Below are positions 479-34,321 of a DNA stretch of 36,886 nt, in pieces; within the stretch, counting starts at the first letter, position 1, and the number at the start of each line of letters is the position of its first letter. The position numbers and the translations under genes are program-made. The notes beneath the pieces are model-generated. The model saw only the letters and a list, made by a program, of their open reading frames with translations. It was not told the origin of the DNA and ran no database searches. The stretch spans positions 1-36,886 of the forward strand of contig PABP01000001.1 of assembly GCA_002699585.1 (NCBI GenBank), in the 5' to 3' direction. Source of the stretch: Anaerolineaceae bacterium. GTDB lineage: Bacteria; Chloroflexota; Anaerolineae; Aggregatilineales; Phototrophicaceae.

Positions 479-1648
479 ATGCGATGCGTGGGATACGTTC
501 GCGTAAGTTCCGAGGAACAAGTAAGTAATTATTCGCTGGATGCTCAGAAACGGGCGATTGAAAAGTGGGTTGATGGCCAGGATGACGCCGTACTGATAGA
601 TGTTTATGCAGATGAAGGTTACTCAGCAAAGACATCAGAACGCCCTGCATTTCGACAACTTCGGCGTGACGCAGCGAAGGGTCAATATGATGCTCTGATT
701 GTCCACAAATGGGACCGATTCGCGGGGAATCGTGAAGATGCCATCCTCTATAAATCTTTTTTGCATCGTGATTATGGCATCAAAGTATTCAGCGTAACAG
801 AGTCGAGCCAGGATAGTGATGGTGCGATGGGTATGCTGGTAGAGTCTATCCTGGAAGCTATTTCGCAGTGGTACAGTCTAAACTTGGCAGCAAAAGTCTC
901 AAAAGGTATTCAGGAAAAGCATCGTCGCGGATTGCACGTTGGTCATGCGCCCTTTGGCTACCAGAAGAATGACAAGGGTCATCTAATCCCTGATGCACAT
1001 GAGCAGATGGGTATCTCACTGATATTTGAAGGGTATGCAACAGGAAATCATAGCTATAGCGACATAGCACGGCTTTTGAATGAGCGTGGTTATCTGACGA
1101 AGCGGCGACAAGCTTTTACTAAGGAAGGTGTACGCGAAATATTGCGCAATGGCATTTATGTGGGGCGCGTGTCTTATCAGAGAGTCTGGTTCAGTACAAA
1201 GCATTAAGTGAGCGTATAAAACGGCTAGATTTTTCGTTTTGACCGAAGTTTTGTTGACCATGAACCCTATGTATATGAGCGAACACAGTTGCAATCGGAA
1301 ATAGATGACCTGATAACCAAGCTGAATCATGAACTTGTGCGTTCGCTAGAAACACTTAGTCGATATAGCGATGAATTAAGTGTCTACAATGATGATATCG
1401 AAAAGTAGCATCGATTTTTGAAGAAGTTCATCCAGAAGGTGTCGGTATCTGGTGAGCGTGTAGTTGAAATAAGCGTTAAAGAAGGCCTGAGGGTGATAAT
1501 CGGCGATAAGCAAGCATTAAAGGTGGCGCTTGACGCACAAACGCCTTATGAGGGCCAATTTGCGGGTTTCGAAGGTACAAAAATGCAGGAAGATAAAGGG
1601 GAGAATAAAGTGTTTAAGAATAGGATGTGGGCAATAAAGTGGGCGTAG
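479..1648 (+). pseudogene. Large serine recombinase, decayed
   Basis: The first 242 codons (479-1207) encode the N-terminal catalytic domain of a large serine recombinase. The start reads GYVRVSSEEQ with the catalytic serine near residue 10, followed by the Recombinase domain (GHAPFGYQ, the repeated GIYVG-type motif). The frame then hits stops at 1205, 1226 and 1406. Beyond them the same frame still reads recombinase-like sequence: a coiled-coil-like stretch (DHEPYVYERTQLQSEID, from 1256) and a basic tail from about 1409 to 1648. The usual zinc-ribbon region between catalytic part and coil is missing, which suggests a deletion as well as point mutations. The catalytic domain could still be translated, but a functional integrase is unlikely. 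The final stop lies inside the repeat core (1643-1673), so the last codons come from the repeat. Confidence 0.8.
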
Positions 1649-1702
1649 AGAGGGTTGGACGCACGCGTGTGCCTTTCCAGTATTTGGCTTGTTCCAGAGC
1701 AT
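1610..1702 (+). repeat. Dispersed intergenic repeat, copy 1 (truncated)
   Basis: First of six same-orientation copies in the window. The 31-bp core is at 1643-1673 and contains AGAGAGGGTTGGAC and the hairpin segment ending GTGTGCC; the right box (TTGGCTTGTTCCAGAGC) follows. Upstream, 1610-1632 matches the TTTACTATAGGATGTGGGC segment of other copies, but an extra 12 bp (AATAAAGTGGGC) separates it from the core. The left box and terminator-like hairpin of other copies are absent. The copy overlaps the 3' end of the recombinase pseudogene and supplies its stop codon. Confidence 0.8.
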
Positions 1703-1950
1703 CTCATTTTTTGTCTGGATCAACTATACAGAACTTGTACTCTCCATAAATATAATGCTATGTTTGTGCTAATTCACAAATTGCGAAACAAGGGCCTCTG
1801 CTTTGATAGTGTAGGCTAGGGAGAAGCCTTAACCTGGAACGCCAAAAAACTGCGAAGTTCCTTCGATATTTGATATACTAGGCCTGATATATGTTAACTG
1901 CGTGTCGTGAATAATGTTTCTTGGGTAATTAGTACATTTTTCGGCTTAGT

Positions 1951-4614
1951 GTGTCAAATGCAATGGAACCTATTCTAGCGACTAAGCTTCATATCCCTCA
2001 CTTGAAGCCAGAAAGCGTTTCTCGCCCGCGTCTGCTTCGTCAGTTGGATGCTGGACAATATCATAGACTCATACTGGTGTCTGCCCCAGCTGGCTTTGGA
2101 AAAACGACCTTGGTCAATGAGTGGGTACGCCAATCTGATTTGCCTGTAGCGTGGCTCTCACTCGACGCAGGCGACAACAACCCCAATCGCTTCGTGGCAT
2201 ACATTCTGGCGTCATTGCAGACAGTCGTTGCAGGGTTTGGTCAACACCTGATGGATTCTCTGACGTCTGGACAAATGCCATCTGAGACATTACTGACAAA
2301 TGTTGTCAATGCAATTAGCCAACAATTTGAGCAATTGATAATGGTGCTCGATGACTACCATGTGATTGAGGAATCCGACGTCGATGACATCCTTGTTTAT
2401 CTCATCGAGCATCTTCCAGTACATATGCATCTCGTTGTCACAACCCGCATTGACCCACAGATTCCGATTGCACGCTTGCGTGCACAGGGATTATTGACAG
2501 AGCTACGTGCTACAGAGCTTCGTTTTAGTCGAAGTGAATCAGCTCAGTTTCTAAATCATGTTATGAAGCTAAATATCGCTGAAGCAGAAGTAGCTACATT
2601 AGAAAGTCGCACAGAAGGGTGGATCGCTGGATTACAGCTTGTAGCTATCTCGTTGAAAGGGCGGGAGAACACATCCGAACTGATTGCGTCATTTTCTGGT
2701 AGCCATCGCTTTGTGCTGGATTACTTAATTGAAGAGGTCTTACATCAACAATCTGACGAAATCCAATTGTTCTTATTACAGACTGCTGTGCTCAATCATC
2801 TAACGGCTTCTCTATGTGATGCCCTAACCGAGCAAGCAAATGGCCAAGATACACTGGAGATTCTTGAACACAGTAATTTATTCATTATGCCGCTTGATGA
2901 AGAGCGCCATTGGTATCGCTATCATCACCTTTTTAGGGAACTTCTTTACCAACAATTGCGCCATTACTACCCTGATCAGATAGCCATACTCCACCTGAGG
3001 GCGAGTGTTTGGTACGAGCAGCATGGCTCTATCGAAGCGTCCATTGACCACGCTCTGAATGCTCAGAATTATGAACGTGCATGCGGACTTATTGAGCAGA
3101 TTGGGATGGCCCGTTGGACACTGGGCGAGGACCAGCAGTTGGGACGGTGGCTCACATTGCTTCCAGCGTCTGCCATTGACTCGCACCCGAAGTTAAGTAT
3201 CTTCTATGCATGGTACCTGTTTTCACAAGGGCAAATTGATACAGCCGACCGATTCATCGAGTCGGCTGAAATGGCCATTGAGGCGTCTAATGTGAATGTA
3301 TCAGATATTGCGGGCCGGGTGGCGGCGACGCGTGCTTTTGCTGCGTTTTATCGTGGCGATACTGTTGCGATCATCCAAAACGCACAGACCGCACTAGTGT
3401 TGCTTGGACCTGATGATCGTGCGTGGTTTAGCGTTGCCCTTCATATTCTGGGTGATGGTTATGACCTCGATGGTAACATGAATGAAGCTTATATAGCTCG
3501 TCGGGATGCGGTTGAAAATATGGATGCTTCCGTCAATCTTTATCAGGGCCTGGTCGCCCACCTCAAACTGGCGGTTGTCTTGCGCCATCAGGGACAGTTG
3601 CCGCGCGTGATTGAGGTTTGTGAACAGCAAATGAAGTCGGCAACTGCAGGTGGGCTCACCCACAGTGGCGTCTGTGGTTGGTTATTGGCCATCTGGGGGG
3701 AAACACTTGCTGAAACTAACGACTTAGATAGTGCCCTTGAAAAGGCTCAAGCAGGCGTCGAGCTTCTCGAACAGGGTGGCGATCAGGCCATGCTAGCTTG
3801 GAGCTATATTTGTCTTATTCGAGTGCTTTTCTCATCTGAGCAATTCGACCAACCACAGCAAATTATCAATAGAATCGAGAATATCGCGCGCGAAAGCTAT
3901 TTTCCTCCCTGGATGCTGCATCATGTAACAGCCTGGCAAGTGAGATTGTGGCTGGCGACTGGGACCATCGGGCTGGCGTCCCAATGGGCCGAGGAATACT
4001 ACCAAACGAGCAGCGAGACCTTGTCCTATGTAACGGAAGCCAAGGATATTGTTCTGGCGCGAACATGGATAGCACAAGGCAATTGTGCAATGGCAACCAG
4101 GCTGCTACAGCGCCTATTTGTCAATGCCGAGGCAGGTGGCCGCACATCTCGTATGATCGAAATCCGGCTGTTACAAGCGCGTGCCCTATATGAAGTAGAC
4201 TACACCTCAAGTGCATTGAAGCGTATTCAACATGCAATCGAACTCGCTGAATACGGCGGGTTCGTGCGTATCTTCGTCGATGAGGGTAGGCACATCCTTC
4301 CGCTGCTACATGAGGCTTTTAGGGCCAACCTATCGCCGGAATATACGGGCCAAATACTCGCTGCCTTTGCCAATAAAGAGTCGGTACTAACACCCCAGGT
4401 TCCCTCAACTGATGGCGTTGATTTATTAAGCGAGCGCGAGCTAGAAGTTTTGCGGCTGATTGCGCAAGGCTATACTAATCAGCAGGCTGCTAATGAATTG
4501 TTCCTCACACGTAACACGGTCAAAGTTCATACACGCAACATCTATGACAAGCTAGGTGTCCATAGCCGGACCGAGGCCGTAGCCAAAGCACGTACGCTTG
4601 GTTTGCTGTCCTAG
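1951..4614 (+). CDS. LuxR-family ATP-dependent regulator (LAL / MalT type)
   Basis: An 887-residue transcription factor of the MalT/LAL class. Residues 46-54 hold a Walker A motif (APAGFGKTT) and residues near 130 a Walker B (LIMVLDDYH). A long helical TPR-like sensor region fills the middle, and a LuxR HTH occupies about 823-884 ([20 protein letters not shown]). The opening ILATKLHIP is typical of the family. These proteins use bound nucleotide and an inducer to self-associate and activate nearby promoters. No clear ribosome binding site distinguishes the GTG at 1951 from an ATG at 1963; family alignment slightly favours 1963. The gene lies directly upstream of a five-gene run on the same strand, its probable target. 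The 1703-1950 gap holds no gene. Confidence 0.9.
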
Positions 4615-4660
4615 CATACCCATATCCCACAACTTGTTACTCTGTCTACTCCCAAATCCA

Positions 4661-4679
4661 AATACCCCTCTAATACCCC
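4661..4679 (+). promoter_or_regulatory. Direct repeat, candidate LAL activator site
   Basis: AATACCCC occurs twice, at 4661-4668 and 4672-4679, with an 11-bp period, about one helical turn. It sits between the regulator stop and the acyltransferase start, roughly 110-130 bp before the latter. MalT-type activators bind short directly repeated G-rich boxes, and the reverse strand here reads GGGGTATT. Assigning it to the neighbouring regulator is inference. Confidence 0.3.
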
Positions 4680-4748
4680 CCTGGTGGTATGACAGCCTCA
4701 TTCCACAGTCGTAAACTGAGATTACAGTGACTATTTCGCTTACGCTGA

Positions 4749-4770
4749 AGTCAACAGACTTATGTTGACT
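4749..4770. promoter_or_regulatory. Perfect 8-bp inverted repeat before acyltransferase gene
   Basis: AGTCAACA (4749-4756) and TGTTGACT (4763-4770) form a perfect inverted repeat with a 6-bp spacer. It ends about 20 bp before the ATG at 4791, so it is either an operator near the transcription start or a hairpin in the 5' leader that could affect ribosome access. The sequence does not tell which. Confidence 0.4.
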
Positions 4771-4790
4771 CGTTGTCAGGGGGAGACAAA

Positions 4791-6008
4791 ATGCAAAAAG
4801 CAAGCACACTACACACAACAGAATCTGCCGCTCCATCACGAGCCATAGCTAAGGAGAGCACTCGGCTCTATTTCATAGACCATTTACGTGCCGCATTGAC
4901 CATCCTTGTGGTGCTACACCACATTGCCATGGTTTTTGGGGCCAGTGCGCCATTCTATTTCGTTGATCCGCCCTTGGATGAGCCTGTCGCATTCCGTGAT
5001 TTGCTCGTCTTCGCTCTGGTTAACCAGGGCTGGTTCATGGGGGCGTTTTTCCTCCTTGCGGGTTACTTCACGCCGACGTCATTCGACCGAAAAGGAACTG
5101 GCCCATTCCTCAAAGATCGACTGATTCGATTGGGCATCCCACTGATTGTCTTCACGTTCATTCTTGGACCACTTTCGGGGCTTGGTGCCTGGCTGATGCC
5201 TGTTGAACTCACTGGCATAACCAACCCGCCAACCTGGGAAGTTTATCCTGACTTGCTGGGTATTGGTCCGTTATGGTTTGTGTTGATGCTGCTGATCTTT
5301 AGCGTCGGCTATGCGGCTTGGCGGCTATTGATCAAACCTTCATGGGTTTCCAACGAGGGGCCATCGCACCTTGGTTATGGCAAGATCCTCGTCTTTACAA
5401 TCGCCTTGGCAGTAGTGAGCTTCTTCTTCCGAATGCTCATACCCTTGGGCCAATCGACGAGTGTTATCTTCGATTTTATTAGCTTCCCAACCCTGGCTTA
5501 CTTGCCGCAATATCTTGGCATGTTTATTGTTGGCTTGGTTGCGGCTCGCAATGATTGGCTGCGCACGATCTCTAATGCAATGGGATTGGTCGGCTTTATC
5601 GCAGCCGCTGCTGCAACGATCATCCTGTTTCCATTGGCGTTCAGTGGCCAACTTTTCTCGCTTGAACTAACCGAAGCCATGCAAAATGCGATGGGTAACG
5701 GTCACTGGCAATCAGCCGCGTATGTAGCCTGGGATTCGATCCTGGTTGTCGGCCTCTCACTGGGTCTCATCGCATTATTCCGTAACGTTTTCAATGTCAA
5801 AGGCTGGTTAGGTACCTTCCTCTCCAAGCAAAGTTATGCCGTCTACATCATTCACATTCCAATTGTGGTCTATCTGACGTATGCGTTGACCAGTCTTGAT
5901 TTGACCAACATTCAGAAGACGATTGTGGCATCGATCATCATCGTTCCGGTCTGCTATATCGTAGCTTTTCTGATTCGTAAACTGCCGTTTGTATCGCGTG
6001 TGGTTTAG
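4791..6008 (+). CDS. Membrane acyltransferase, acyltransferase-3 family
   Basis: A 405-residue polytopic membrane protein with about ten hydrophobic segments. The N-terminal sequence RLYFIDHLRAALTILVVLHH is typical of the acyltransferase-3 (OatA/MdoC-like) family; the histidines after the first membrane helix are the usual catalytic position. Members transfer acyl groups, often from acyl-CoA, to envelope glycans, antibiotics or lipids; the substrate here cannot be told. The ATG at 4791 is chosen over an upstream TTG at 4773 because a strong ribosome binding site (AGGGGGA) lies 6-7 bp before it. It is the first gene of a probable operon reaching 8774 and follows the LAL regulator. Confidence 0.85.
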   Translation: MQKASTLHTTESAAPSRAIAKESTRLYFIDHLRAALTILVVLHHIAMVFGASAPFYFVDPPLDEPVAFRDLLVFALVNQGWFMGAFFLLAGYFTPTSFDRKGTGPFLKDRLIRLGIPLIVFTFILGPLSGLGAWLMPVELTGITNPPTWEVYPDLLGIGPLWFVLMLLIFSVGYAAWRLLIKPSWVSNEGPSHLGYGKILVFTIALAVVSFFFRMLIPLGQSTSVIFDFISFPTLAYLPQYLGMFIVGLVAARNDWLRTISNAMGLVGFIAAAAATIILFPLAFSGQLFSLELTEAMQNAMGNGHWQSAAYVAWDSILVVGLSLGLIALFRNVFNVKGWLGTFLSKQSYAVYIIHIPIVVYLTYALTSLDLTNIQKTIVASIIIVPVCYIVAFLIRKLPFVSRVV

Positions 6009-6030
6009 ATAACGCGCCAGAGCGCATTGG

Positions 6031-6055
6031 TAACTGTGGCCTTCGGCTGCAGTTA
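6031..6055 (+). terminator. Hairpin between acyltransferase and next gene
   Basis: TAACTG (6031-6036) pairs with CAGTTA (6050-6055), with further wobble and GC pairs around a CTTC-type loop. No T-run follows, so it is a weak terminator at best. It may be an intercistronic hairpin that lowers or stabilises the downstream part of the transcript. Confidence 0.35.
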
Positions 6056-6122
6056 TTCCGCCAAACGCAGTTCAAATAGGTAACGCCAAAAATCTAGTTG
6101 GGCACAAAACAGGGTGTTTGCT

Positions 6123-6380
6123 ATGAAAAACAAAGGTCGCAGACTCACCTTAGATCGCCCGACGCTTTACCAGATCAAAGTGCCTGGTGCACTTGATGCA
6201 ACGTGGTCGGATTGGGCAGAGGATGTGACCCTCAATGTAGAGGATGATGAAATAGGTCAACGTGTTACTGTCCTGACCTGTAAGGTGGACCAGGCAGCAC
6301 TACAAGGCATATTGCGTCGACTATATGCATTGGGCTTACCACTACTTTCAGTGGATAGCATCGACTGTGACAATGATTAA
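6123..6380 (+). CDS. Small conserved-looking protein of unknown function
   Basis: An 85-residue soluble protein starting MKNKGRRLTLDRPTLYQIKV. It is acidic in the middle (WAEDVTLNVEDDE), ends with a helical stretch (ILRRLYALGLPLLSVDSI) and an acidic tail. The alternation of strands and a helix suggests a small alpha/beta fold. The ATG at 6123 is preferred over GTG at 6114 because AGGG at 6111-6114 is well placed as its ribosome binding site. It ends 33 bp before an MDR gene, so the two are probably cotranscribed. I do not recognise a named family and assign no function. Confidence 0.7.
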   Translation: MKNKGRRLTLDRPTLYQIKVPGALDATWSDWAEDVTLNVEDDEIGQRVTVLTCKVDQAALQGILRRLYALGLPLLSVDSIDCDND

Positions 6381-6413
6381 GCCATCAAACAGCTTTTTCT
6401 ATGGGGGATTGTG

Positions 6414-7415
6414 ATGAAAGCTGCTGTTTATTCACAGTACGGGACACCTGATGTACTACAGGTGAAAGAGGTAGCAACACCTACACCACACGACAACGAG
6501 GTTCTGATTAAGGTGAAGGCAGCTACTGTAACACGCTTTGATTGTTGGATGAGGCAAGGTACCGGTCCCGCAGGGTTTGGTCTCATAAGCCGTATGGCTT
6601 CTGGTTTTAACAAACCGAAGCAACCCATTCTTGGTACGGAACTATCGGGTGTCGTTGAAGCAGTAGGGGAGACTGTAACGCGCTTCAAAATTGGTGATCC
6701 AGTCTTTGGCTTTACAGGCGCGCGTCTGGGTGCATATGCTGAGTATATTTGTCTTCCAGACGACAGTACGCTAGCGACTTTACCTGAAAATCTGTCCTAC
6801 GAGCAGGCTGCTGCTGTGCCCTATGGCTCATTGACAGCGTTGTTCTTCTTGCGTGCGGCCAATATTCAGCCGAACCAGAAAGTACTGGTCTTTGGTGCAT
6901 CTGGTTGTGTCGGAACGGCAGCCGTCCAAATTGCCAAGAATTTTGGAGCGGAGGTCACTGGCGTTTGCAGTACCTCAAAAGTCGATATGGTGGAATCTCT
7001 GGGTGCTGACAAGGTCGTTGACTATAAAACGGAGGACTTCTCCAAACAGGGTGTGACCTATGATGTTATCTTCGACACAATAGGTAAAAGTCCCTTTGCC
7101 GACAGTGTGAAGGCGCTCAAAAAGGGAGGCATGTATCTATTTGCCACGTTTGGCTTGCCGCGTATGCTGCAACTCTTCTGGCTCAAGCTGACTAGCAACA
7201 GGAAAGTTGGGCCACTTGCTACAGTCGAAGAGCACGTAGAAGACCTTGTCTTCCTCAGGGATTTGATTGAGGCTGGTGAGATCAAGCCATTCATCGACCG
7301 CTGCTTTCCACTTGAAGAGATCGCTGAGGCGCATTGCTATGTCGAATCCGGCCGTAAGCGCGGCAACGTAATCATAATCGTCAATGATACGAACCACGTG
7401 GAGACAAGAACATGA
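6414..7415 (+). CDS. NAD(P)-dependent MDR oxidoreductase (quinone-reductase type)
   Basis: A 333-residue medium-chain dehydrogenase/reductase. The N-terminal GroES-like half (MKAAVYSQYGTPDVLQVKEV) is followed by a Rossmann nucleotide-binding segment with GASGCVGTAAVQIAK near residues 160-175. The C-terminal phrase FPLEEIAEAHCYVESGRKRG is typical of the family. The structural-zinc cysteine cluster of classical alcohol dehydrogenases is absent, so a zinc-independent quinone/enone reductase-like activity is more likely than alcohol oxidation. GGGGGA upstream supports ATG 6414. Its stop overlaps the start of the next gene (ATGA), implying translational coupling. A paralogue lies at 7839-8774. Confidence 0.85.
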   Translation: MKAAVYSQYGTPDVLQVKEVATPTPHDNEVLIKVKAATVTRFDCWMRQGTGPAGFGLISRMASGFNKPKQPILGTELSGVVEAVGETVTRFKIGDPVFGFTGARLGAYAEYICLPDDSTLATLPENLSYEQAAAVPYGSLTALFFLRAANIQPNQKVLVFGASGCVGTAAVQIAKNFGAEVTGVCSTSKVDMVESLGADKVVDYKTEDFSKQGVTYDVIFDTIGKSPFADSVKALKKGGMYLFATFGLPRMLQLFWLKLTSNRKVGPLATVEEHVEDLVFLRDLIEAGEIKPFIDRCFPLEEIAEAHCYVESGRKRGNVIIIVNDTNHVETRT

Positions 7416-7798
7416 CCTCTGTGAAGATCAAACTTTCCGCGTCTTGGGTCGCGCTGATGCTCACGTACTTGCTAGGAGACGTACTGCGGATATTCAGCGG
7501 GGACTTCAATGCTGGCGAAATCGGTGATGTCCAAATTGGACAAATGTTGTACCTGGCGCTGGCTGTGCTGATGGTGATTCCCATCATCATGGTCTATGCA
7601 TCTGTCACGCTCGATGATCGACTGAATCGCTGGGTGAACATGGCTGCCGCTGTATTCCTGTTTGTCTTTAATCTGGTTGGATTGCCAACTTACCCAACGG
7701 CCTACGATAAATTTCTCATTGTCGTGGGCCTCGGATTCAACATATTGACCATATGGCATGCCTGGACTTGGTCAAAATCCGAGACTGCTGTTGTTTAA
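7412..7798 (+). CDS. Four-helix membrane protein, DUF6326-like
   Basis: A 128-residue protein with four hydrophobic segments: near 12-28, 48-68, 78-98 and 103-120. The pattern (SASWVALMLTYLLGDVLRIF, then a short hydrophilic loop and VQIGQMLYLALAVLMVIPII) resembles the DUF6326 family of small membrane proteins with no known activity. Its ATG overlaps the stop of the preceding MDR gene. Lying between two MDR paralogues suggests a membrane partner or a shared metabolic context, but that is inference. Confidence 0.7.
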   Translation: MTSVKIKLSASWVALMLTYLLGDVLRIFSGDFNAGEIGDVQIGQMLYLALAVLMVIPIIMVYASVTLDDRLNRWVNMAAAVFLFVFNLVGLPTYPTAYDKFLIVVGLGFNILTIWHAWTWSKSETAVV

Positions 7799-7838
7799 GA
7801 CCTGTCACCTGAGTGAGAAACCCAAGAGGGCAATAATT

Positions 7839-8774
7839 ATGAAAGCGGTTATTTGTACGAAATATGGTGCGGCGGATGTTTTGCAGCTGGCAGATATTCC
7901 AAAACCATCTCCCAAAGACAATCAAGTACTCATTAAAATTCACGCGACAACCGTCCACGTCGGTGATATTCGTATTCGCAGCTTTGATGTGCCGCGCTGG
8001 TCATGGCCGCTGGCGCGCCTGGCGCTTGGCCTTTTCCGGCCAAGGAATCCGGTCCTCGGTATGGAATGCGCGGGCACCATAGAAACGGTAGGTCAGGATG
8101 TTACGCGCTTCAAGGTTGGGGATGCTGTAATGGCATCTTTGTTTCCAGCGTCGAAACAGTTCGGAGGCTATGCTGAATACAAGTGTCTACAAGAGAGTGA
8201 TTTGATTGTTCATAAACCCGACAACATAAGCTTTGAGGAAGCTGCAGCAGTTCCAGCTGGTGGCCTGACTGTCATGGTGCTATTCAACCAAGCCAATAGT
8301 CAGCCTGGCCAAGAAATCCTGATTTATGGTGCATCAGGCAGCGTGGGCACGTATGCTGTTCAAATTGCCAAGGCCCGAGGTGCCAAAGTTACAGGCGTGT
8401 GTAGCACACGCAACTTGGATCTGGTGGCATCACTTGGCGCTGATCGCGTCATTGACTACACTCGTCAGGATTTCGTTACTCTAGATCAAAAGTATGACCT
8501 TATTCTGGATGCAGTCGATAAACTGAAGCCTGAATATGGCAAGCAGGCTCTAAAGCCTCAAGGAATCTATCTCAATGTTTCAAAGGATTCGGGTTCTCCA
8601 AAAGATGTCAAACAAGCATACTTGGATGAACTTCGAGAGCTAATAGAAGCAGGCAAACTGAAAGTTGTGATAGACCGTTGCTATCCACTAGATGAGATCG
8701 TAGAAGCTCATCGATACGTCGAACAGGGGCACAAGCGTGGTAATGTTATTGTCACAATTTTGCCAAACACGTGA
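7839..8774 (+). CDS. Second NAD(P)-dependent MDR oxidoreductase
   Basis: A 311-residue paralogue of the 6414 gene, starting MKAVICTKYGAADVLQLADI, with Rossmann motif GASGSVGTYAVQIAKARGA and C-terminal YPLDEIVEAHRYVEQGHKRG. It is shorter than its paralogue mainly in the loop before the C-terminal catalytic segment. AAGAGGG at 7824-7830 places the start at ATG 7839; the longer in-frame reading from 7758 would overlap the upstream gene and is rejected. It is the last gene of the run; the repeat copy 2 follows about 125 bp later. Confidence 0.85.
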   Translation: MKAVICTKYGAADVLQLADIPKPSPKDNQVLIKIHATTVHVGDIRIRSFDVPRWSWPLARLALGLFRPRNPVLGMECAGTIETVGQDVTRFKVGDAVMASLFPASKQFGGYAEYKCLQESDLIVHKPDNISFEEAAAVPAGGLTVMVLFNQANSQPGQEILIYGASGSVGTYAVQIAKARGAKVTGVCSTRNLDLVASLGADRVIDYTRQDFVTLDQKYDLILDAVDKLKPEYGKQALKPQGIYLNVSKDSGSPKDVKQAYLDELRELIEAGKLKVVIDRCYPLDEIVEAHRYVEQGHKRGNVIVTILPNT

Positions 8775-8900
8775 TTCAATCGGGACATCCTTCTATGGCG
8801 TTTTTTGGCCACCTGGTGAAGATGTTGAGCTTTGACCTAGACTAGGTGCTTGGCGCTTCCTGTATAGGCTTTGATATCAATAGTTGTTAATCTCTTAAAA

Positions 8901-9028
8901 TGAAAAAGACCAAATACACCTAAGCATCGATCTTTCATATCATTTATAGTTTTTACTATGGGATGTGAGCGCAGAGAGGGTTGGACGCACACATGTGCCA
9001 CTCTGGTATCTGGTTTGTGCCGGATCAT
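8901..9028 (+). repeat. Dispersed intergenic repeat, copy 2
   Basis: Core at 8969-8999 with AGAGAGGGTTGGAC and the hairpin segment, then the right box (CTGGTTTGTGCCGGATCAT) to 9028. TATAGTTTTTACTAT at 8945-8959 is the short hairpin of the family. The terminator-like part upstream (AAAAAGACC at about 8904) is degenerate and no longer pairs well. It lies between convergent genes, 127 bp past the plus-strand MDR stop. No gene is seen in 8775-9108. Confidence 0.85.
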
Positions 9029-9108
9029 TTAAGTGTTCAAGATTGTACTTTATCTTGAAGAAGATGGATTGGATCGACAAGCGAAAAGTCAATCTTTACA
9101 TCCAAGCG

Positions 9109-9402: not shown

Positions 9403-9546
9403 CTATAGAAGCCCATTCTGTGAACGCAATAACGTGATTGCGACAAGGAAGCCTTTTCCTATTTTAACCCTATAAGAAATTAGGCTTCCTGTAGGTCTCA
9501 GAAGCTATTTACGAAGTTTATGGGGTGTTTCCCTTGTGGAATCCGT

Positions 9547-24747: not shown

Positions 24748-24772
24748 GATTTTGGAAGCTTCATAACAGCTC

Positions 24773-25240: not shown

Positions 25241-25252
25241 TATCTGCAGATA
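25241..25252. promoter_or_regulatory. 12-bp palindrome upstream of ABC transporter genes
   Basis: TATCTGCAGATA is a perfect 12-bp palindrome about 60 bp before the first permease start, in AT-rich sequence suited to a promoter. It is a candidate repressor site for the transport operon; no regulator gene is beside it. Confidence 0.3.
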
Positions 25253-25312
25253 ATTGCTGTTGGTTGAGTAATCGTCTGTCTTATTGGCAAAACTCTTAGT
25301 GAGCATTTTCTT

Positions 25313-26404: not shown

Positions 26405-27483
26405 GCATGCCTACAAGCGAAAAAGAAAAAAGCGCAATCGCGGTCAGAAGTATGGAAGAGCGTCCAGTTGATCTGCGCTCGGAAATCATTCTGCAATTCT
26501 TGCTCTTTGGGGTAGGGCTGATCGTATCGTTCCCTATTTTGTTGGCGCTGCTTTCTAGCTTTAAAGTGCCAGAGGACATTATAAACTATCCTCCGACCCT
26601 ATTCCCGCAGCAGCAAGTCCATGTCAGCGTGACGGGTTACGATGAGCCTTTGCCTCTCTATCAGTTGACTTTGGATGATGGCACCGTCGCTGAGTATGCT
26701 CAAGTTTCGCGCGAGGGTGGTCGTTTATACATGGTTAATCCGTCTAACCCAGGCGACATGATTGATGTTGCACCGTCTGCAGCCAAACGCATCGAGCGCT
26801 TTGCACTGTCTTTTGAGAATTACGAAACAGCCTGGACCTCCCAGCCTTTTGCACGCTATTTTTTCAATAGCGTTGTGCAAACCGGCATCATAGTGGCCTT
26901 TCAACTCCTGTTCAGTATTCTAGCTGCCTATGCCTTCGCAATCCTCGACTTTCCAGGTCGCAACTTTCTATTCTATTTGATCGTCGGCAGTCTGATGGTT
27001 CCGTTCCAGTTAACCTTTATTCCGAATTTCATATTTGTAAGCGAACTTGGCTTATCGAATACATACATTGGATTGACGCTGCCTTTCCTTGCGAGTGCTT
27101 TTGGCGTGTTCTTGCTGCGTCAATTCTTTATGTCGCTGCCAAGAGAGCTGTACGAAGCTGCCCTCATTGACGGGGCCAATAGCTGGCTCTATCTATGGCG
27201 TGTCGTCGTACCGTTGAGCAAAGGTGCGATTAGTGCATTTGGTATTTTCTCGTTCCTGGGCGCATGGAGCCAGTATCTATGGCCACTCGTTATTACCAAT
27301 GAGGTCGACATGCGCACCATACAAATAGGCATCCGGTTCTTCTTGTTCGATCAAGAACGGGGTGCCGATTGGGGTGGCATTATGGCCACCGCTATAATCG
27401 CGTTGCTCCCAACGTTGCTTATTTTCCTTGTTGCTCAGCGACAATTAGTCCGTGGTATCGCAATGACCGGACTTAAAGGTTAA
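26401..27483 (+). CDS. ABC sugar/glycerol-phosphate permease (UgpE/MalG-like)
   Basis: A 360-residue partner permease with the EAA loop YEAALIDGANSWLYLWRVVV. Between the first helix (about 30-50) and FALSFENYETAW is an insertion of about 65 residues (QVHVSVTGYDEPLPLYQLTL and on to about 135), predicted outside the membrane and beta-rich. UgpE proteins normally have about 280 residues. The start overlaps the upstream stop (ATGA), so the permeases are made together. The insertion may contact the binding protein. Function as glycerol-phosphate uptake is inferred from the binding protein and the phosphodiesterase downstream. Confidence 0.85.
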   Translation: MSMPTSEKEKSAIAVRSMEERPVDLRSEIILQFLLFGVGLIVSFPILLALLSSFKVPEDIINYPPTLFPQQQVHVSVTGYDEPLPLYQLTLDDGTVAEYAQVSREGGRLYMVNPSNPGDMIDVAPSAAKRIERFALSFENYETAWTSQPFARYFFNSVVQTGIIVAFQLLFSILAAYAFAILDFPGRNFLFYLIVGSLMVPFQLTFIPNFIFVSELGLSNTYIGLTLPFLASAFGVFLLRQFFMSLPRELYEAALIDGANSWLYLWRVVVPLSKGAISAFGIFSFLGAWSQYLWPLVITNEVDMRTIQIGIRFFLFDQERGADWGGIMATAIIALLPTLLIFLVAQRQLVRGIAMTGLKG

Positions 27484-27620
27484 TCATCTTACGTTGCTGA
27501 CCGATATGTACGTTTCCAATAGGTTTGGCTTTGTGCGGGATTGATCCGCTTAAGCAATAGAGGTTTTGGGGTGCTGTTGGCAAGCTTCCCCATGCTTACT
27601 TTCCACATTTAGGAGGTATT

Positions 27621-28946
27621 ATGTTGAAGAAACTATCTGTCTTTGTTCTTCTTTCTGTCTTGGCGCTTGTACTTACGACAACGTCTGCCCAAGAACCGAT
27701 TGAGCTGCAGTTCTGGCACGCTATGGGTGGTGATCTCGGTGAAGTCGTTGACGAACTGGTCGCACGCTTTAACGAAAGCCAGGATGAAATCGTTGTAACG
27801 GCTGTTTTCCAGGGATCGTATGATGACACATATAACGCCCTGCTCGCTGCCCTAGAAACAGATTCGATGCCGAATGTGACCCAGAACTTCGATCTGGCTA
27901 CCCAGACAATGCTGGACTTCCCTGGCTTGTTGCCAGCTAATACGCAATTTGGTGATGACTTTGACCCGTCGGTTTTCGTCCCCGCAGTACGTGACTACTA
28001 CAGTGACGAAAACGGCATGGTCGCCATGGCTTTCAATAGCTCAACGCCCATTCTCTATTACAATGCTGAAATTGTTGCCGAAGCAGGTGTCGACCTTCCT
28101 GACAACGATAGCCTGTCGTTCAGCGAACTGCTTGAGGCTTGCGATACCATCATGGCCAATACAGATACCCAATACTGCATCACCTTTGGGCAGGTTGGCT
28201 GGTACTTTGAACAGATTCTCGCGAACAGCGGCGGCCTGTACTTCAACAATGATAATGGTCGTACCGCCCGCGCTTCGGAAGTCATGTTCAATCAAGGTCT
28301 GGGTGTCGAAGTCTTCACCTTCCTGACGGATCTGATGGCCAATGGCTATGCGCCTAACCTGGGCAATACGTGGACTGACACCGATGCAACCTTCCTGGCT
28401 GGCGAAGCAGCAATGATCTTTGACAGCACGGCGGGTGCACGCGGCTTCCAGGAAGCTGCTGAATTCGAAGTCGATACGACCTACATCCCCCATGCTGACA
28501 GCGCCGAGCGCAATGGTGTAGTTATCGGTGGTGCTGCTCTGTACCTGCTAGATAGTGGCGACGAAGCGACCAACCAGGCAGCCTGGGAATTTATGCGTTT
28601 CATGTCACAGGAACCTCAGCAAATCACTTGGCACACGGGCACGGGCTACTTCCCGGTTCGCTCCTCATTGCAGGACAACGAAGAACTCCAGACGTTCTGG
28701 GCTGATAACCCGAACTTCTTGACTGCGATTCAACAATTGGCGGATACCAACACCACACTTGACGATGGTGCGCCAAACTATGCAGTTCTGGGTGGTCGCG
28801 CTGGGCCATTCCCGGCAATCCGTCAGTTGATCGTCACCGCATATAGTCGTGTGCTTGACGATGGTTTGACCCCACAAGAAGCGCTCGACGAAGCGGCTGC
28901 CGCAGCAAATCAGGAACTCGCTGATTACAACGCGTTCTTTGAGTAA
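27621..28946 (+). CDS. Extracellular solute-binding protein, UgpB-like
   Basis: A 441-residue substrate-binding protein. The signal peptide (1-23, cut at TSA before QEP) is not followed by a lipobox cysteine. The mature start (ELQFWHAMGGDLGEVVDELV) and later GTGYFPVR match the UgpB family of glycerol-3-phosphate / glycerophosphocholine binders. AGGAGG at 27611-27616 gives a strong start. It is 137 bp after the permeases and followed by a terminator-like hairpin, which would raise its amount relative to the other genes. With no lipid anchor seen, it may be free in a periplasm or held by another component. Confidence 0.85.
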   Translation: MLKKLSVFVLLSVLALVLTTTSAQEPIELQFWHAMGGDLGEVVDELVARFNESQDEIVVTAVFQGSYDDTYNALLAALETDSMPNVTQNFDLATQTMLDFPGLLPANTQFGDDFDPSVFVPAVRDYYSDENGMVAMAFNSSTPILYYNAEIVAEAGVDLPDNDSLSFSELLEACDTIMANTDTQYCITFGQVGWYFEQILANSGGLYFNNDNGRTARASEVMFNQGLGVEVFTFLTDLMANGYAPNLGNTWTDTDATFLAGEAAMIFDSTAGARGFQEAAEFEVDTTYIPHADSAERNGVVIGGAALYLLDSGDEATNQAAWEFMRFMSQEPQQITWHTGTGYFPVRSSLQDNEELQTFWADNPNFLTAIQQLADTNTTLDDGAPNYAVLGGRAGPFPAIRQLIVTAYSRVLDDGLTPQEALDEAAAAANQELADYNAFFE

Positions 28947-28979
28947 GCTGATTTGTTGTAGTAAGTACTGAATACCTTT

Positions 28980-29017
28980 GGGGTGGATGGTGTGGCTGTC
29001 CACCCCTGTCTGTTTTT
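28980..29017 (+). terminator. Terminator-like hairpin after binding-protein gene
   Basis: GGGGTGGA (28980-28987) pairs perfectly with TCCACCCC (28999-29006); TGTCTGTTTTT follows to 29017. It lies between the UgpB-like gene and the phosphodiesterase gene. Partial read-through would give high binding protein and lower downstream expression. Confidence 0.75.
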
Positions 29018-29046
29018 GTCACTTTAATTAATAGGGTCTGATTTCT

Positions 29047-30024
29047 GTGAAGCGTTTTTCTCTCGTCTGCATGCTGTTAGTCGTAGTTGTGCCGCTATAT
29101 GCTCAGTCCACTCTCCTACCAGAGAGTTTCGACGTGCAGGGGCATCGGGGCGCACGTGGCCTAAAGCCAGAGAATACCTTGCCAGCGTTTGAAATCGCGC
29201 TTGATCTTAGAGTCAGTACGCTAGAAATGGACCTGCATTTTACAGCGGATGATCGTGTTGTGGTCTGGCATGATCCGGAAATCAACATGGATCGCTGCCG
29301 GTTGCCAGAAGACAACACCATTGAACTGCCTCAGAGCAGCAGTCTTATTTTCGGTAGTAACTCCCTACAGATCAGGCAGCTTACGCTGGAACAGGTACAG
29401 GCATTCATCTGTGATGGCCTTGATAATGAACGCTTCCCTCAGCAAGTCAACAGCCCTACGCTGCTGGCAGACGATGACTACCGCATCCAAACGTTAGATG
29501 CCGTTTTTGCCTTTGTCGATGATTATTCTGAGTCAGAGGCAAAATCCGCTAGCCAGCGCGAAAATGCGTCAACCATTCACTTCAATATTGAAAGTAAACG
29601 AAATGCGAATGATGCATCTGTCATAGATGATGGCTTCGATGGCGAGCATATCGCGCCATTTGAGCAGGCTATTATGACTATCGCAGCCGAATATGACGTC
29701 TTGGAGCGGATCACTCTACAGAGCTTTGACCATCGTGTGTTATGGGCCGTGAAGGCCGCATATCCCGATGTGCAAATCGCCGCCTTAACCAATCGCCAGC
29801 ATTCCCAATTTGAAGTTTATGCTGACCAAGGCACCGAGATTTGGTCGCCGAACTATACGCAAATCACCGAAGCCGACATTGCCCAGGCACATCGAAACGA
29901 GATATTGGTTATCCCTTGGACCATAAATGACCCTGATGATATGCTTAAACTGATCGAGTGGGGCGTTGATGGCATTATTACGGATCGTCCCGACATCCTC
30001 TTGAATCTACAAATTGACGAGTAG
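29047..30024 (+). CDS. Secreted glycerophosphodiester phosphodiesterase
   Basis: A 325-residue exported enzyme of the GDPD family. The signal peptide ends at PLYA before QST. Catalytic motifs are visible: HRGARGLKPENT near residues 33-44, EMDLHFT with the metal-binding acid pair, and VVWHDPEINMDR; the C-terminal WTINDPDDMLKLIEWGVDG is also typical. The enzyme hydrolyses glycerophosphodiesters to glycerol 3-phosphate and an alcohol. Placed after a UgpB-like importer, it fits scavenging of lipid headgroup phosphodiesters outside the cytoplasm, followed by uptake. The GTG start is the only one giving a complete signal peptide. Confidence 0.88.
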   Translation: MKRFSLVCMLLVVVVPLYAQSTLLPESFDVQGHRGARGLKPENTLPAFEIALDLRVSTLEMDLHFTADDRVVVWHDPEINMDRCRLPEDNTIELPQSSSLIFGSNSLQIRQLTLEQVQAFICDGLDNERFPQQVNSPTLLADDDYRIQTLDAVFAFVDDYSESEAKSASQRENASTIHFNIESKRNANDASVIDDGFDGEHIAPFEQAIMTIAAEYDVLERITLQSFDHRVLWAVKAAYPDVQIAALTNRQHSQFEVYADQGTEIWSPNYTQITEADIAQAHRNEILVIPWTINDPDDMLKLIEWGVDGIITDRPDILLNLQIDE

Positions 30025-30036
30025 AAAAGCGACCAT

Positions 30037-33000
30037 ATGTCCAAGAAGCTCGTTCTCATAGCCGTTCTAATATCACTGTTGACAGCCACTTTGCATGTTG
30101 TGGGCCAACAGTCGCTCATGACGCTCGACGAGCCACCACAGGTAGAGGTAGTTGTTGAAGGCCTACGTAATCCAGTCGGACTAGCAGCTTTGCCTGATGG
30201 CACGTTGATTATTGCGGAGGAGGGTACAGGTGAACGTGACCTGAGCGCTGGCGTAAGCATTCTTCAGCCGGATGGCCAGGTGGGACGATTGATTAGTGGT
30301 ATCCGTAGCGGGCGTGATTCCGGTGATTTAAGTGGGGTTGCCCTGGTAGGGGTCTCGCCAGATTATCAGACATTGTATGTGGGTAACTTTAATGAGGGGC
30401 ATCTTTGGACGCTGCCTATCCCCCCAGAAGGCATAAGTTTACCAGAAACACCATATACTCCTGATGACCTTGAGGTGGCGATGCAGCCGCTCAATCGCGT
30501 CAAGCTGACCAATCCCTATGACATTACTTTTGATGCTGATGGCATTCCAATTGTTTCGGATGCTTCAGGCGATGGCGTCGCTCGTGAATTGCCCGATGGC
30601 ACAACCCAATTTTTTCATCGTTTTGCGCGCATTCCAAACCCAACCAATGAGAATCTGACAATTTCGCCTGTACCGACAGGCATCGACCGCATTGGCGATG
30701 AGTATTATGTCACGCTGACAGGGGGCTGCCCGTATCCGGCAGGCAGTGGCTTATTGGTTGCCATTGACGAGCAGCGTAACCAACGCACAATCGTCGATAA
30801 TCTGAACATGCCCATTGATGTCGTGCAGGCTGATGATGGCACTGTGTGGGTACTGGAATTCGCTCGTTTCTCGCCAGATGGATCATGCTTCAGCGGGTCG
30901 GGTTATTTGCCGAACAGTGGGCGCTTGAGCATTCTTGCTGATGATGGCACGCTTGAAACAATTCTGGAGAATCTGGACTTTCCCGGTGCAGTAATGCCGA
31001 TGCCTGACGGTAGCCTTTACGTCAGCGAGATTTTCGATGGAGAAATACTGCACATCACATTTGACGAGCGTGAACTCGGTAGCGATTTTGACCTGCCAGA
31101 TATTGCCGGACTAACACCCCAATACAATGCCGTAGAGGACTATGATGCGGCGTTGCAGCAAGTCATTGCTGAGCAGGATTTGCAGGCCTATCCGGGCGCC
31201 TCGGTCCGGGAAGGGGACACGCCCTTAGCCGAATTGGGGCGTGATCTCTTTTTCGATCCCATACTATCAGGTGATCAAAACATTAGCTGTGCAACTTGCC
31301 ATCATCCGGCCTTTGCGATGGGGGATGGTCGCGTTCTGCCTATTGGTACAGGTGGGAGTGGGCTGGGAGAGCACCGTGATTTCCAGTCTCATATCACGTT
31401 GAGTGATGAATACTATCTGGCTGATGATCGCGGTGCACAAGTGCCGAATCCCGCTAATGGCATGTTTGTGCCCCGCAACAGCCTGACCATTATCAATAGT
31501 GCCTTGTTGCCTGCCCAATTCTGGGATGGTCGTGTAGAGAGTTATGCTTTGGGGGCGCAAGTTAAAGCGATTGAACCTGGCGTCAGTGAACTGGCATTGA
31601 CTGATGCCCTTGCTGTGCAGGCCATGTTCCCGATCACTTCCCGCGCAGAAATGAGCGGCGCAACTTTTGGCGAAGCTCTACCTGCCAGCATCCGCACTCT
31701 AATCGTCCAACGTTTGATGAATATTCCAGCTTATCAAGCGCGCTTTGCTGATATCTTCGGCGATAGCGACATCACTCCCGTGCAGATCGCTACCGCTATT
31801 GCTGCCTTTGAGCGTCAGCTCGTGTTTACGGATTCGCCTTGGGATGACTATTTAGCGGGTGATGTGGATGCCCTGTCTGAACAGCAGAAACGTGGCGCGC
31901 TCCTCTTCTACGGCGTGCTTAATGACGAAGTGAACTGTGCGTCTTGCCACAGCGGCGATATGTTCACTGACATGAATTATTACAACCTGCTTGTGCCACA
32001 GCTTGGCCCTGGCAAAGGCAATGGTACAAGCGGACGCGAGGATTATGGTCGAGCTAATGTATCTTTTGATTGGCGCGATCGTTACCAGTTCAGGACAGCT
32101 CCGCTGCGTAACGTGGCTATCACTGCGCCTTACTTCCATAGTGGGGCATACGACACACTCGAAGATGTCATCTGGCATCATGCCAATGTTTGGCAATCTG
32201 CTCAGCAATATGATCCGTCCCAATCCCTACCGCAGACTTTCTATAGCAGCTTCAGGGAGTATGACTTTGAGGCTCAAGCCCCTTATGTCGCTGCCGGTCT
32301 GGCAAACGGCTTGCCTCTGAGTGATCAGGATGTGGCCGATTTGATAACCTTCTTGGAGAGCTTGACAGATGCTTCGGCGAGTGACTTGACCCACTTCGTA
32401 CCACAAGCTGTACCGAGCGGCTTACCGCTTGACCCCGTACCTGAAGAAGAACTCGCGACGCATCATAGCGATTCAGCGCCGGAAAGCGTCAGTGAAACAA
32501 TAGATCCATTGTCTGAGGAAGCAACCAATTGGCACTTTGTCAATGTCGCCCAGGAGGTTGGTCTGGACTTTACGCATGGGGCATTCCAGTTCAACATCTA
32601 TGAAGATCCTGCCGCGATGATGGGGGCAGGTCTTTGCTGGCTAGATTATGATAATGATGGTTGGCTGGATCTCTATTTAGTTAATAGCCATGCAGAAGAA
32701 GAGGTTGATTTACTGGCCGATGCCTTGCCCCAGAACCGATTGTTCCGTAACGTTGAAGGACATTTTGTGGATGTGTCTAGCGAAACTGGAACAGCCATTG
32801 CTGTACGTGGTAATGGCTGTGTTGCTGCCGACTTCAATGTTGACGGCTGGGATGATTTGTACCTCACGGTCGATGGATCAGATCGCTTGCTGATGAACCA
32901 GGGCGATGGCACTTTCGTGGATGAAACGACTTCGGCAGGTCTGGGTGCATCTGAATGGACAACTGCTGTGTCGGTCGGCGATCTCAATGGGGATGGACTG

Positions 33001-34110
33001 CCTGATCTGTTCGTGGGGGCCTATATATCGCTCGACAACAAAATCCCTAATCCGATGGGGGCCTTCCCACAGGACTATTTTGGTTTGCCGGACCATCTTT
33101 ACATTCATGATGGTATCGCTCCTGATGGCAGCATTCACTTTACGGAAGTGACCCTAGAGGTCGGCCTCCTGCGCGAGGAACGTACCCTGGGTTCGATTTT
33201 GACCGATGTTGATCTCGATGGTGACCTGGATCTGTACATCGCAAACGACGGCCAGCCGAACCGCCTTTATGAGAATGTGCCAGTTGACAATGATCTGATT
33301 GGATTCCGGTTTGTTGATCTAGTGGATAGTGCCCAGGTAGGGGATGCTGGCAGTGGCATGGGCGTTGCTTCCGGCGACTATGATGGCGATGGATTCTTTG
33401 ACCTGCTGGTGACCAATTGGGAAGCTGAGCTAAACGCACTTTATCGCAATGAAACAGCGGAAAACGATCATATCAGCTTCAGGTATAGTACCTTCCGCAT
33501 TGGCATGCGGGGATTGGGAAACAATCAAACCGGATGGGGTGTTACCCTGGCTGACTTCGACCACGATACGGATATGGACATGATGAATGTTAACGGTCGT
33601 GTGCCTGTTGCCAACTTCACAACCGATCCGGAGCTTGTGCAGCTCTATGGCAATTCCTTGGCCGAACAAGGTCGTGCCACGTTTTTGCCTTGGACGCAGC
33701 GTGTAGGCTTGTCAGCAGTCGGGCCGCTGCTTGCTCGTGGCAGCGCCATTGCCGATTATGATAATGACGGCGATCTGGATATAGCGATCAACATCATACG
33801 CGGCGAGGCTGTTTTGCTAGAGAACAGGGATGTTTCGGGAAACTGGCTGCTTGTCAGTGGCGATTTTGACGCTGGAACAAAAGTCATTGTGACACTGCCC
33901 GATGGCCGTGAATTGATACGTGAACTGCACACGGGTAGTAGCTACCTGTCATCCGAAGATCCACGACTTCATTTTGGACTTGGGAATGTCGATGTTGTGT
34001 CACAAGTAACGATATATCTACCTGACAACCAGTCGCTTGCCCTTAGTGAAATCGCTGCTAATCAAATAGTACCATTGCGCGCATTTAGGACTGCCAACAA
34101 TAGCGAATAG
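30037..34110 (+). CDS. Propeller / diheme cytochrome c peroxidase-like / VCBS-ASPIC fusion
   Basis: A 1357-residue exported protein of three parts. Residues about 30-350 are an NHL/ScyD-type beta-propeller (VEGLRNPVGLAALPDGTLII). Residues about 380-790 are a diheme cytochrome c peroxidase/MauG-like domain with heme motifs CATCH (418-422) and CASCH (634-638). Residues 850-1270 hold about seven VCBS/FG-GAP repeats with calcium-type DxDxDG motifs (DYDNDG at 870 and 1240). The end (about 1280-1350) is an ASPIC/UnbV domain. The signal peptide ends near VVG before QQS. It starts only 12 bp after the GDPD stop, so cotranscription is likely. Electron-transfer or peroxidase activity is expected from the hemes, but no substrate is evident. 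I find no frameshift; the frame is continuous. Confidence 0.85.
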   Translation: MSKKLVLIAVLISLLTATLHVVGQQSLMTLDEPPQVEVVVEGLRNPVGLAALPDGTLIIAEEGTGERDLSAGVSILQPDGQVGRLISGIRSGRDSGDLSGVALVGVSPDYQTLYVGNFNEGHLWTLPIPPEGISLPETPYTPDDLEVAMQPLNRVKLTNPYDITFDADGIPIVSDASGDGVARELPDGTTQFFHRFARIPNPTNENLTISPVPTGIDRIGDEYYVTLTGGCPYPAGSGLLVAIDEQRNQRTIVDNLNMPIDVVQADDGTVWVLEFARFSPDGSCFSGSGYLPNSGRLSILADDGTLETILENLDFPGAVMPMPDGSLYVSEIFDGEILHITFDERELGSDFDLPDIAGLTPQYNAVEDYDAALQQVIAEQDLQAYPGASVREGDTPLAELGRDLFFDPILSGDQNISCATCHHPAFAMGDGRVLPIGTGGSGLGEHRDFQSHITLSDEYYLADDRGAQVPNPANGMFVPRNSLTIINSALLPAQFWDGRVESYALGAQVKAIEPGVSELALTDALAVQAMFPITSRAEMSGATFGEALPASIRTLIVQRLMNIPAYQARFADIFGDSDITPVQIATAIAAFERQLVFTDSPWDDYLAGDVDALSEQQKRGALLFYGVLNDEVNCASCHSGDMFTDMNYYNLLVPQLGPGKGNGTSGREDYGRANVSFDWRDRYQFRTAPLRNVAITAPYFHSGAYDTLEDVIWHHANVWQSAQQYDPSQSLPQTFYSSFREYDFEAQAPYVAAGLANGLPLSDQDVADLITFLESLTDASASDLTHFVPQAVPSGLPLDPVPEEELATHHSDSAPESVSETIDPLSEEATNWHFVNVAQEVGLDFTHGAFQFNIYEDPAAMMGAGLCWLDYDNDGWLDLYLVNSHAEEEVDLLADALPQNRLFRNVEGHFVDVSSETGTAIAVRGNGCVAADFNVDGWDDLYLTVDGSDRLLMNQGDGTFVDETTSAGLGASEWTTAVSVGDLNGDGLPDLFVGAYISLDNKIPNPMGAFPQDYFGLPDHLYIHDGIAPDGSIHFTEVTLEVGLLREERTLGSILTDVDLDGDLDLYIANDGQPNRLYENVPVDNDLIGFRFVDLVDSAQVGDAGSGMGVASGDYDGDGFFDLLVTNWEAELNALYRNETAENDHISFRYSTFRIGMRGLGNNQTGWGVTLADFDHDTDMDMMNVNGRVPVANFTTDPELVQLYGNSLAEQGRATFLPWTQRVGLSAVGPLLARGSAIADYDNDGDLDIAINIIRGEAVLLENRDVSGNWLLVSGDFDAGTKVIVTLPDGRELIRELHTGSSYLSSEDPRLHFGLGNVDVVSQVTIYLPDNQSLALSEIAANQIVPLRAFRTANNSE

Positions 34111-34176
34111 CGTACTGGTAAGTGCAATTTCTGACTACTAAAGAGGAGAGTCTTTCGAACGTGGGCGGCGACCAAT

Positions 34177-34321
34177 GAATTCTCGACTCGCTTAACTCGT
34201 AAGACATCAAATACTCTTATATCGAAATTCTTATCAGTATAGTTTTTACTATAGGATGTGGGCGCAGAGAGGGTTGGACACACACGTGTGCCATTCTGGA
34301 ATCTGGTTTGTGCCCGATCAC
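34177..34321 (+). repeat. Dispersed intergenic repeat, copy 6
   Basis: The left part (CTCGACTCG near 34182) and the hairpin region are degenerate and no longer form a stem. TATAGTTTTTACTATAGG is intact, the core is at 34262-34292, and the right box is CTGGTTTGTGCCCGATCAC. It starts 67 bp past the fusion gene. With copies 1, 2 and 4 it shows that the core survives where the terminator arm does not. Confidence 0.85.

Follow-up and report, generated by a model that had tools for sequence, protein, structure and literature searches.

Intergenic repeats of an Anaerolineaceae contig as probable attachment sites of a serine recombinase system at a tRNA gene 3' end

The contig PABP01000001.1 of an Anaerolineaceae bacterium (assembly GCA_002699585.1) was analysed over its full length of 36,886 nucleotides, hereafter the window, and carries six copies of an intergenic repeat of approximately 70-170 bp. 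The window is all of contig C15 in an assembly (G000) of 42 contigs and 6.70 Mb. The repeats are very probably attachment (att) sites used by a large serine recombinase (LSR) system whose integration target is a tRNA gene 3' end, in this genome that of tRNA-Val(CAC). The repeat family was noticed earlier from the letters of the window (the sequence-only reading) and that observation is confirmed and largely explained as a tRNA-targeted tandem island or cassette array, in which the repeats join units of 3-9 kb that are mostly multigene.

A covariance model (CM) was built from seven repeat copies and a genome search at E<=10 returned exactly eight matches, six in the window (c1 to c6) and two on contig C7 (c7, C7:1133-1316, and c8, C7:8033-8204), the latter both on the minus strand and at most 8.2 kb from the left end of this 1.10 Mb contig. 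Scores were 149-174 bits for c2 to c6 and 84.6 bits for c1, and the E-values of the copies in their own genome ranged from 2.5e-13 to 4.6e-32. These values, together with the lack of copies in the same-genus genome G001, exclude a repeat family arising by chance, and all six window copies were found on the plus strand, as originally described. The window copies were as follows.

1637..1705, plus strand: c1, LSR tail, core at 1639-1652 (one mismatch) and P' arm; no terminator arm
8877..9046, plus strand: c2, left arm with a weaker hairpin, core at 8965-8978 (one mismatch) and P' arm; CM 149.2 bits
14140..14325, plus strand: c3, left box, terminator arm, core at 14244-14257 (exact) and P' arm; CM 174.4 bits; hairpin z -5.1 on the tRNA-sense strand
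17254..17429, plus strand: c4, left box, left arm with a weaker hairpin, core at 17348-17361 (two mismatches) and P' arm; CM 165.6 bits
24897..25074, plus strand: c5, left box, terminator arm, core at 24993-25006 (one mismatch) and P' arm; CM 162.9 bits
34172..34339, plus strand: c6, degenerate left box, left arm without a terminator hairpin, core at 34258-34271 (exact) and P' arm; CM 167.1 bits

The description of six full mosaic copies failed for c1, which comprised the right half only (approximately 1637-1705), its left side being the tail of a decayed recombinase gene and not homologous to the other copies. Among the boxes quoted in that description AGAGAGGGTTGGAC was exact in five of the six copies, while exact matches to GGACTCCCGACC and TATAGTTTTTACTATA were limited to two copies each and to CTGGTTTGTGCCGGATCAT to a single copy. 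On its right the conserved block ended rather abruptly about 50 bp past the core, where mean pairwise identity fell from 0.84 to 0.53 to 0.35 in consecutive 10-column bins, while its left side was ragged.

The core consensus GTGGGCGCAGAGAG corresponded at 14 of 14 bases to the 3' end of tRNA-Val(CAC), antisense (G000:C2:12895-12969). It was exact in two of the eight copies (c3 and c6), differed by one mismatch in five (c1, c2, c5, c7 and c8) and by two in c4. Integron attC sites have the core motif GTTRRRY and the integron integrase IntI is a tyrosine enzyme. The repeat holds GTTGGAC, which is compatible with that motif, and the one orientation and cassette-like units would also suit a classical integron with attC sites after its cassettes. 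However, conservation extended well past GTTGGAC, the neighbouring recombinase is a serine enzyme and the core is accounted for by the tRNA; an integron is a very improbable explanation, although no search aimed at an IntI gene was made. A second tRNA-like piece was seen in the left boxes of c3 to c7 (e.g. window 17259-17270 and 24902-24913), where GGACTCCCGACC, sitting 81-99 bp before the core, gave an 11/12 match to the antisense T-arm of tRNA-Val, GAACTCCCGACC.

The recombinase gene that runs into c1 was located as follows.

479..1204, plus strand: LSR gene, catalytic domain and start of the recombinase domain (Pfam Resolvase 9.2e-30, Recombinase 1e-11)

Its C-terminal part has decayed through stops and frame changes and could be traced to approximately 1645, inside c1. 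The window LSR shared 51-58% identity with the nearest LSRs, and its clade showed the LSR plan of a Resolvase followed by a Recombinase domain in about 500 amino acids (aa), with a PDB match to SPbeta YokA over 49-472 and ten relatives of 490-587 aa when read to the stop, some reading into the tRNA. A second LSR of the clade, which also carries a zinc ribbon and is interrupted by a stop, ends at the tRNA-Val(CAC) gene on contig C2.

An alignment of the LSR clade was compared with named GTDB contigs and returned 79 loci, of which 28 were scanned for tRNAs with ARAGORN and 23 with at least 39% identity were counted (L106-L128, several from the same genomes as the nearest-LSR set). A tRNA-Val (4) or tRNA-Asp (14) gene lay antisense within about 185 bp of the matched LSR 3' end in 18 of the 23, and the recombinase 3' end overlaps the putative att site antisense to the RNA gene. 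Among the other five loci, L112 breaks off within the core at a contig end, L116 and L124 had the core followed by non-tRNA sequence, as in c1, and L126 and L128 had no core in the bases inspected. No tmRNA was detected in the LSR loci scanned. Self-comparison of 12 LSR regions (11 relatives and C2) for long direct repeats gave nothing array-like except on G054 C21 (L048-L049), where a recombinase of the clade has nearby repeats of about 150 bp, present several times in direct and inverted orientation.

The search of the genome and relatives proposed in the sequence-only reading yielded the eight copies above and no copy in 60 relatives under stricter CM filters, including G001, which is a single contig. 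One copy queried against phage and against plasmid collections gave no match, nor did the core pattern in GTDB contigs, a set from which the genome itself is possibly absent. Because CM copies occurred only in their own genome and in none of the 60 relatives, the repeat sequence itself does not travel between genomes; the tRNA logic does. A miniature transposable element targeting terminators would be compatible with the hairpins inside the repeats and with copies located mostly after stop codons. Against this, the genome of 6.7 Mb has all eight copies in two contig segments, the core corresponds to a tRNA 3' end, c1 has the right half only and the 60 relatives lack the repeat, and such an element is extremely unlikely. 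The confinement to two segments likewise spoke against a strand-biased chromosome motif and did not fit a plain miniature inverted-repeat transposable element, dispersed in both orientations. The suggestion of a mobile element that prefers terminators came nearest among the three readings offered earlier, with the corrections that the repeat is not itself transposing and is most likely a recombination site, and that the tRNA-type terminator is likely a part of this site rather than its target. Placement at gene 3' ends applied to the six window copies (c1 after a pseudogene) and to c8, but not to c7, where an open reading frame (ORF) of the opposite orientation has its first possible start 19 bp away.

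Terminator-like hairpins on the tRNA-sense strand were clear in c3, c5 and c8 (-16.0, -13.1 and -13.0 kcal/mol, values calculated without shuffles) and weaker in c2, c7 and c4 (-9.3, -8.8 and -5.9 kcal/mol), thus the mosaic hairpin reported from sequence was clear in two window copies, weaker in two and absent from c6 and c1. In shuffle tests c3 gave z -5.1 and c8 z -2.1, while a stretch of c6 with only a small hairpin gave z -1.0. The uninterrupted tRNA-Val gene of G001 has a terminator-like hairpin directly past its 3' end and, by eye, many other tRNA-Val and tRNA-Asp genes have a similar one, and the left arm of the repeat is interpreted as the 3' flank of a tRNA or an imitation carried by the unit. 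In favour of a regulatory 3' untranslated region (UTR) RNA family common to these operons, the c3 terminator hairpin is stable on the minus strand, which is the tRNA-sense one (z -5.1). Such a family is very improbable, as c6 lacks the hairpin and c1 any such arm, c7 lies at a gene 5' end, the strongest conservation is in the core and P' arm, and no Rfam family matched in the window at its threshold (0 matches). Restriction to two segments argued further against a general UTR RNA. Where a recombinase gene adjoins the tRNA, its final codons occupy the position of the arm. For the C2 LSR these codons (L040:12835-12900), antisense after the tRNA, formed a hairpin of -29 kcal/mol (z -4.8), and the recombinase gene tail may serve as terminator of the tRNA.

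Under the attachment-site reading, a well-kept site would consist of a left arm with an intrinsic-terminator hairpin, the 14-bp core corresponding to the tRNA 3' end, and the P' arm. We infer that an incoming circle (right arm-core-P') would recombine at the tRNA site (arm-core-tRNA), leaving a junction made of the previous unit's right arm, the core and the new unit's left (P') arm, while the new unit's own arm and core would then abut the tRNA, and repeated integration would build a tandem array. The single orientation of the copies would follow from an asymmetric site that makes recombination directional, and would extend to eight of eight copies if C7 and C15 form one array. The tRNA gene would stay whole and the target would be rebuilt, since each unit would bring a tRNA 3' end and terminator. 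Most units seen hold only cargo (regulators, enzymes and transporters), thus they would either need an LSR acting in trans or be fossils.

The same plan recurred at tRNA-Asp genes elsewhere. Genome G009, of the same family, had six core sites spread along 83 kb of the plus strand, and the tRNA-Asp gene itself forms the last of them; this array emerged only with the tRNA core as query over a longer stretch. Core mismatches were 3, 0, 0, 1, 2 and 0, thus five sites had at most two mismatches versus none on the minus strand, where three matches with three mismatches each were found; five mononucleotide shuffles gave 0-4 per strand at three or fewer mismatches. Because three-mismatch matches also occur on the minus strand and in shuffles, the three-mismatch site rests on its left arm, which aligned with the third site's left arm across 88 bp (84%). 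Two right arms were alike over 108 bp (89%), and the last unit carries a ParA gene, 90% identical to that of the window, and a recombinase at the tRNA. A second, divergent serine recombinase of G009 (C7 approximately 1434413-1435810, from the end of L101 to the start of L102) runs in the opposite direction and its 3' end overlaps another core site, which indicates that recombinases may abut sites from either side. On contig C36 of the window's own genome (L270-L271), a terminator-core-P' site lies 8.7 kb from tRNA-Asp, with an LSR tail at the tRNA. At the tRNA-Asp gene of G001 (L276) a 5.6 kb unit whose first large gene encodes a MalT/LuxR-type regulator was bounded by 133-bp direct repeats (77%) that end in the tRNA-Asp core; an LSR profile search found no match in it. 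In G047 a second core site lies 73 kb before tRNA-Val beside sequence that by eye resembles a recombinase tail, and a profile search found no recombinase there. ParA was rejected as an array marker, given that five ParA neighbourhoods (G022, G048, G050, G066 and G092) had no clade LSR and no tRNA in the 37-100 kb read.

A doubtful explanation, though one worth weighing, is that one or two LSR insertions were followed by homologous recombination or duplication between the repeats, which enlarged the array, the recombinase-less units being dead remnants comparable to cis-mobilizable elements (CIMEs). CIME accretion has been described (PMC5704250, in the sections available), both local LSRs are broken, and the arms of the G001 unit resemble a retained LSR 3' tail by eye. 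On the other hand, the cargo of the window units is unrelated rather than duplicated, and a regulator and dehydrogenase pair like that of window unit 1 was present between two att-like sites in another genus and at a different tRNA. Two such pairs were found in G009 with 36-52% identity, one between two detected sites and the other left of the first detected site. An LSR-run, integron-like capture is proposed tentatively, and as somewhat short of an even prospect, in which small recombinase-less cassettes, several opening with a MalT-type regulator, would carry a tRNA 3' end and terminator that rebuild the target each time and would pile up behind tRNA-Val and tRNA-Asp genes across Anaerolineae.

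Several results count against the attachment-site reading or bear on its details. The recurrence of the regulator and dehydrogenase pairs is weak evidence of cassette exchange because these families are common. The left box is not explained by an attachment-site model, c2, c4 and c7 have only a weak terminator hairpin and c6 and c1 have none, and the resemblance between the left arm and the terminator of tRNA-Val in G001 is a judgement by eye. The two LSR genes detected in the genome are both broken, which makes present activity doubtful. Dyad symmetry was found at 15-16 of 24 positions in three composed P-core-P' sites (shuffle p 0-0.0225), made from the arm beside the C2 LSR and the right arm of c6, or from the G009 equivalents, in pairs picked after the motifs were seen, and the dyad centres, judged by eye, coincide at one T-stem position for tRNA-Val and tRNA-Asp. 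Six uncomposed sites (c1, c6, C36, G047, L116 and L124) had no significant dyad (p 0.48-0.97). The dyad fits, without proving, an attP in which P', the part common to the repeats, forms the right half. Left and right arms were incongruent over c2 to c8, as predicted (Mantel r -0.30, p 0.84, c1 dropped; control inside the right arm r 0.33, p 0.07), a test of low power with seven copies.

The contigs C15, C7 and C2 are also not joined, and their ends are made up of repeats that resemble transposase sequence (with a weak rve match, under its cut-off, at the C7 end and the left end of C15 judged by eye). The C7 end is common to C2, C32, C23 and C37 and the C15 right end to C41; proof of the C7-C15-C2 joins was not obtained, and the order C7 end, C15 and C2 tRNA-Val is therefore only inferred. 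In the stretch compared, synteny with G001 ran along C7 from approximately 19,420 to 8,310, where a dehydrogenase gene lying just ahead of c8 ends, and went no further, hence c8 looks like a chromosomal edge. The gene adjacent to c8 lies far from tRNA-Val in G001, a further point against the reading. The tRNA-Val edge is on C2, with its far side syntenic with G001.

The closest known system is the ssrA-specific genomic islands of Dehalococcoides, in which the serine recombinase DsiB overlaps the att site, the 20-bp repeats are in tandem and 15 of 31 islands lack an integration module (PMC3146451, as far as its available text describes them). Shared features are the phylum Chloroflexota, a serine recombinase that is antisense to the RNA gene and overlaps the att site with its 3' end, islands stacked in tandem behind a single RNA gene, members without an integration module, and direct repeats of the RNA gene 3' end, which bound each unit here also. 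In contrast, the defining target is tmRNA there and tRNA-Val or tRNA-Asp here, the repeat measures 20 bp plus flanks there and about 70-170 bp here, where its left arm can include a terminator, and the module there comprises DsiA, ParB and Mom, whereas ParA, not ParB, was matched in the window. No DsiA-, ParB- or Mom-like gene was found among the 23 window ORFs scanned with Pfam, to which the search was limited. Apart from its target, the present array would work in a similar way.

Integrons are one-way arrays of gene cassettes separated by recombination sites, and the present array differs in its serine recombinase, its 3-9 kb and mostly multigene units and an att core derived from a tRNA. 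SCCmec, a staphylococcal cassette chromosome (SCC) element, targets rlmH and not a tRNA gene. SCC elements share a serine recombinase (CcrA/CcrB) and one-orientation tandem insertions at a gene 3' end (PMC3146451, same text), but have two ccr genes and occur in different bacteria. In the available part of PMC5704250, accretion of integrative and conjugative or mobilizable elements (ICEs and IMEs) and CIMEs resembles the present case in its tandem elements at a tRNA 3' end and recombinase-less members that retain att sites; unlike here, the tRNA-targeting cases involve tyrosine recombinases, while serine-recombinase IMEs disrupt dispensable genes.

According to the portion of the 2014 Islander paper available, serine integrases targeting tRNA genes were not known then (PMC4383910), against which the LSR clade in Chloroflexota-named assemblies repeatedly targets tRNA genes. 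A 2023 survey of mycobacterial prophages listed, in its available text, 16 tRNA or tmRNA attB sites in M. abscessus, all of tyrosine-integrase systems, and six serine-integrase sites (PMC10654092), and the accessible part of PMC10083194 does not mention tRNA, tandem or Chloroflex. No account of serine-recombinase arrays at tRNA genes was found in the literature searched, a search whose reach mostly left out subscription journals. The tRNA version with mostly recombinase-less blocks appears new, tandem RNA-gene islands being already known from Dehalococcoides. The sites mark units that can be read closely as a record of gene capture in the poorly studied Anaerolineae, supply genome engineering with candidate pairs of att sites located at tRNA ends, and the arrays offer a test of the movement of recombinase-less units and of tRNA gene survival under repeated insertion.

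The units between the repeats and the right end of the window were as follows.

1706..8876, plus strand: unit 1, MalT/LuxR-type regulator (1951-4614), acyltransferase, zinc-type dehydrogenases (6411-7415 and 7758-8774) and DUF6326
9047..14139, plus strand: unit 2, BTAD/AAA/TPR regulator (10522-14100) and three short minus-strand ORFs
14326..17253, plus strand: unit 3, one large protein (14535-17174) with weak beta-propeller matches, all under curated cut-offs
17430..24896, no single strand: unit 4, TPR-CHAT protein (20184-23897, minus strand) and three ORFs on mixed strands with no match or weak TPR
25075..34171, plus strand: unit 5, ABC permeases and solute-binding protein, GDPD phosphodiesterase and MauG/FG-GAP protein
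34912..35673, plus strand: ParA-type ATPase, 90% identical to the ParA of the LSR-bearing terminal unit of the G009 array
35917..36708, minus strand: IS3-type transposase at the contig end (assembly break)

The three short minus-strand ORFs of unit 2 (window 9109-10350) encode 97, 87 and 92 aa and had no Pfam match. Both contig ends (window 1-60 and 36700-36886) apparently lie inside insertion sequence (IS)-like genes in the same orientation, the left end judged by eye, and C15 may be circular or may represent the stretch between two IS copies. On contig C2, just before the LSR at tRNA-Val (L040:8668-10066), E1-like and JAB-like defence-type genes were present (PADLOC E1-E2 6e-26, JAB 3e-15).

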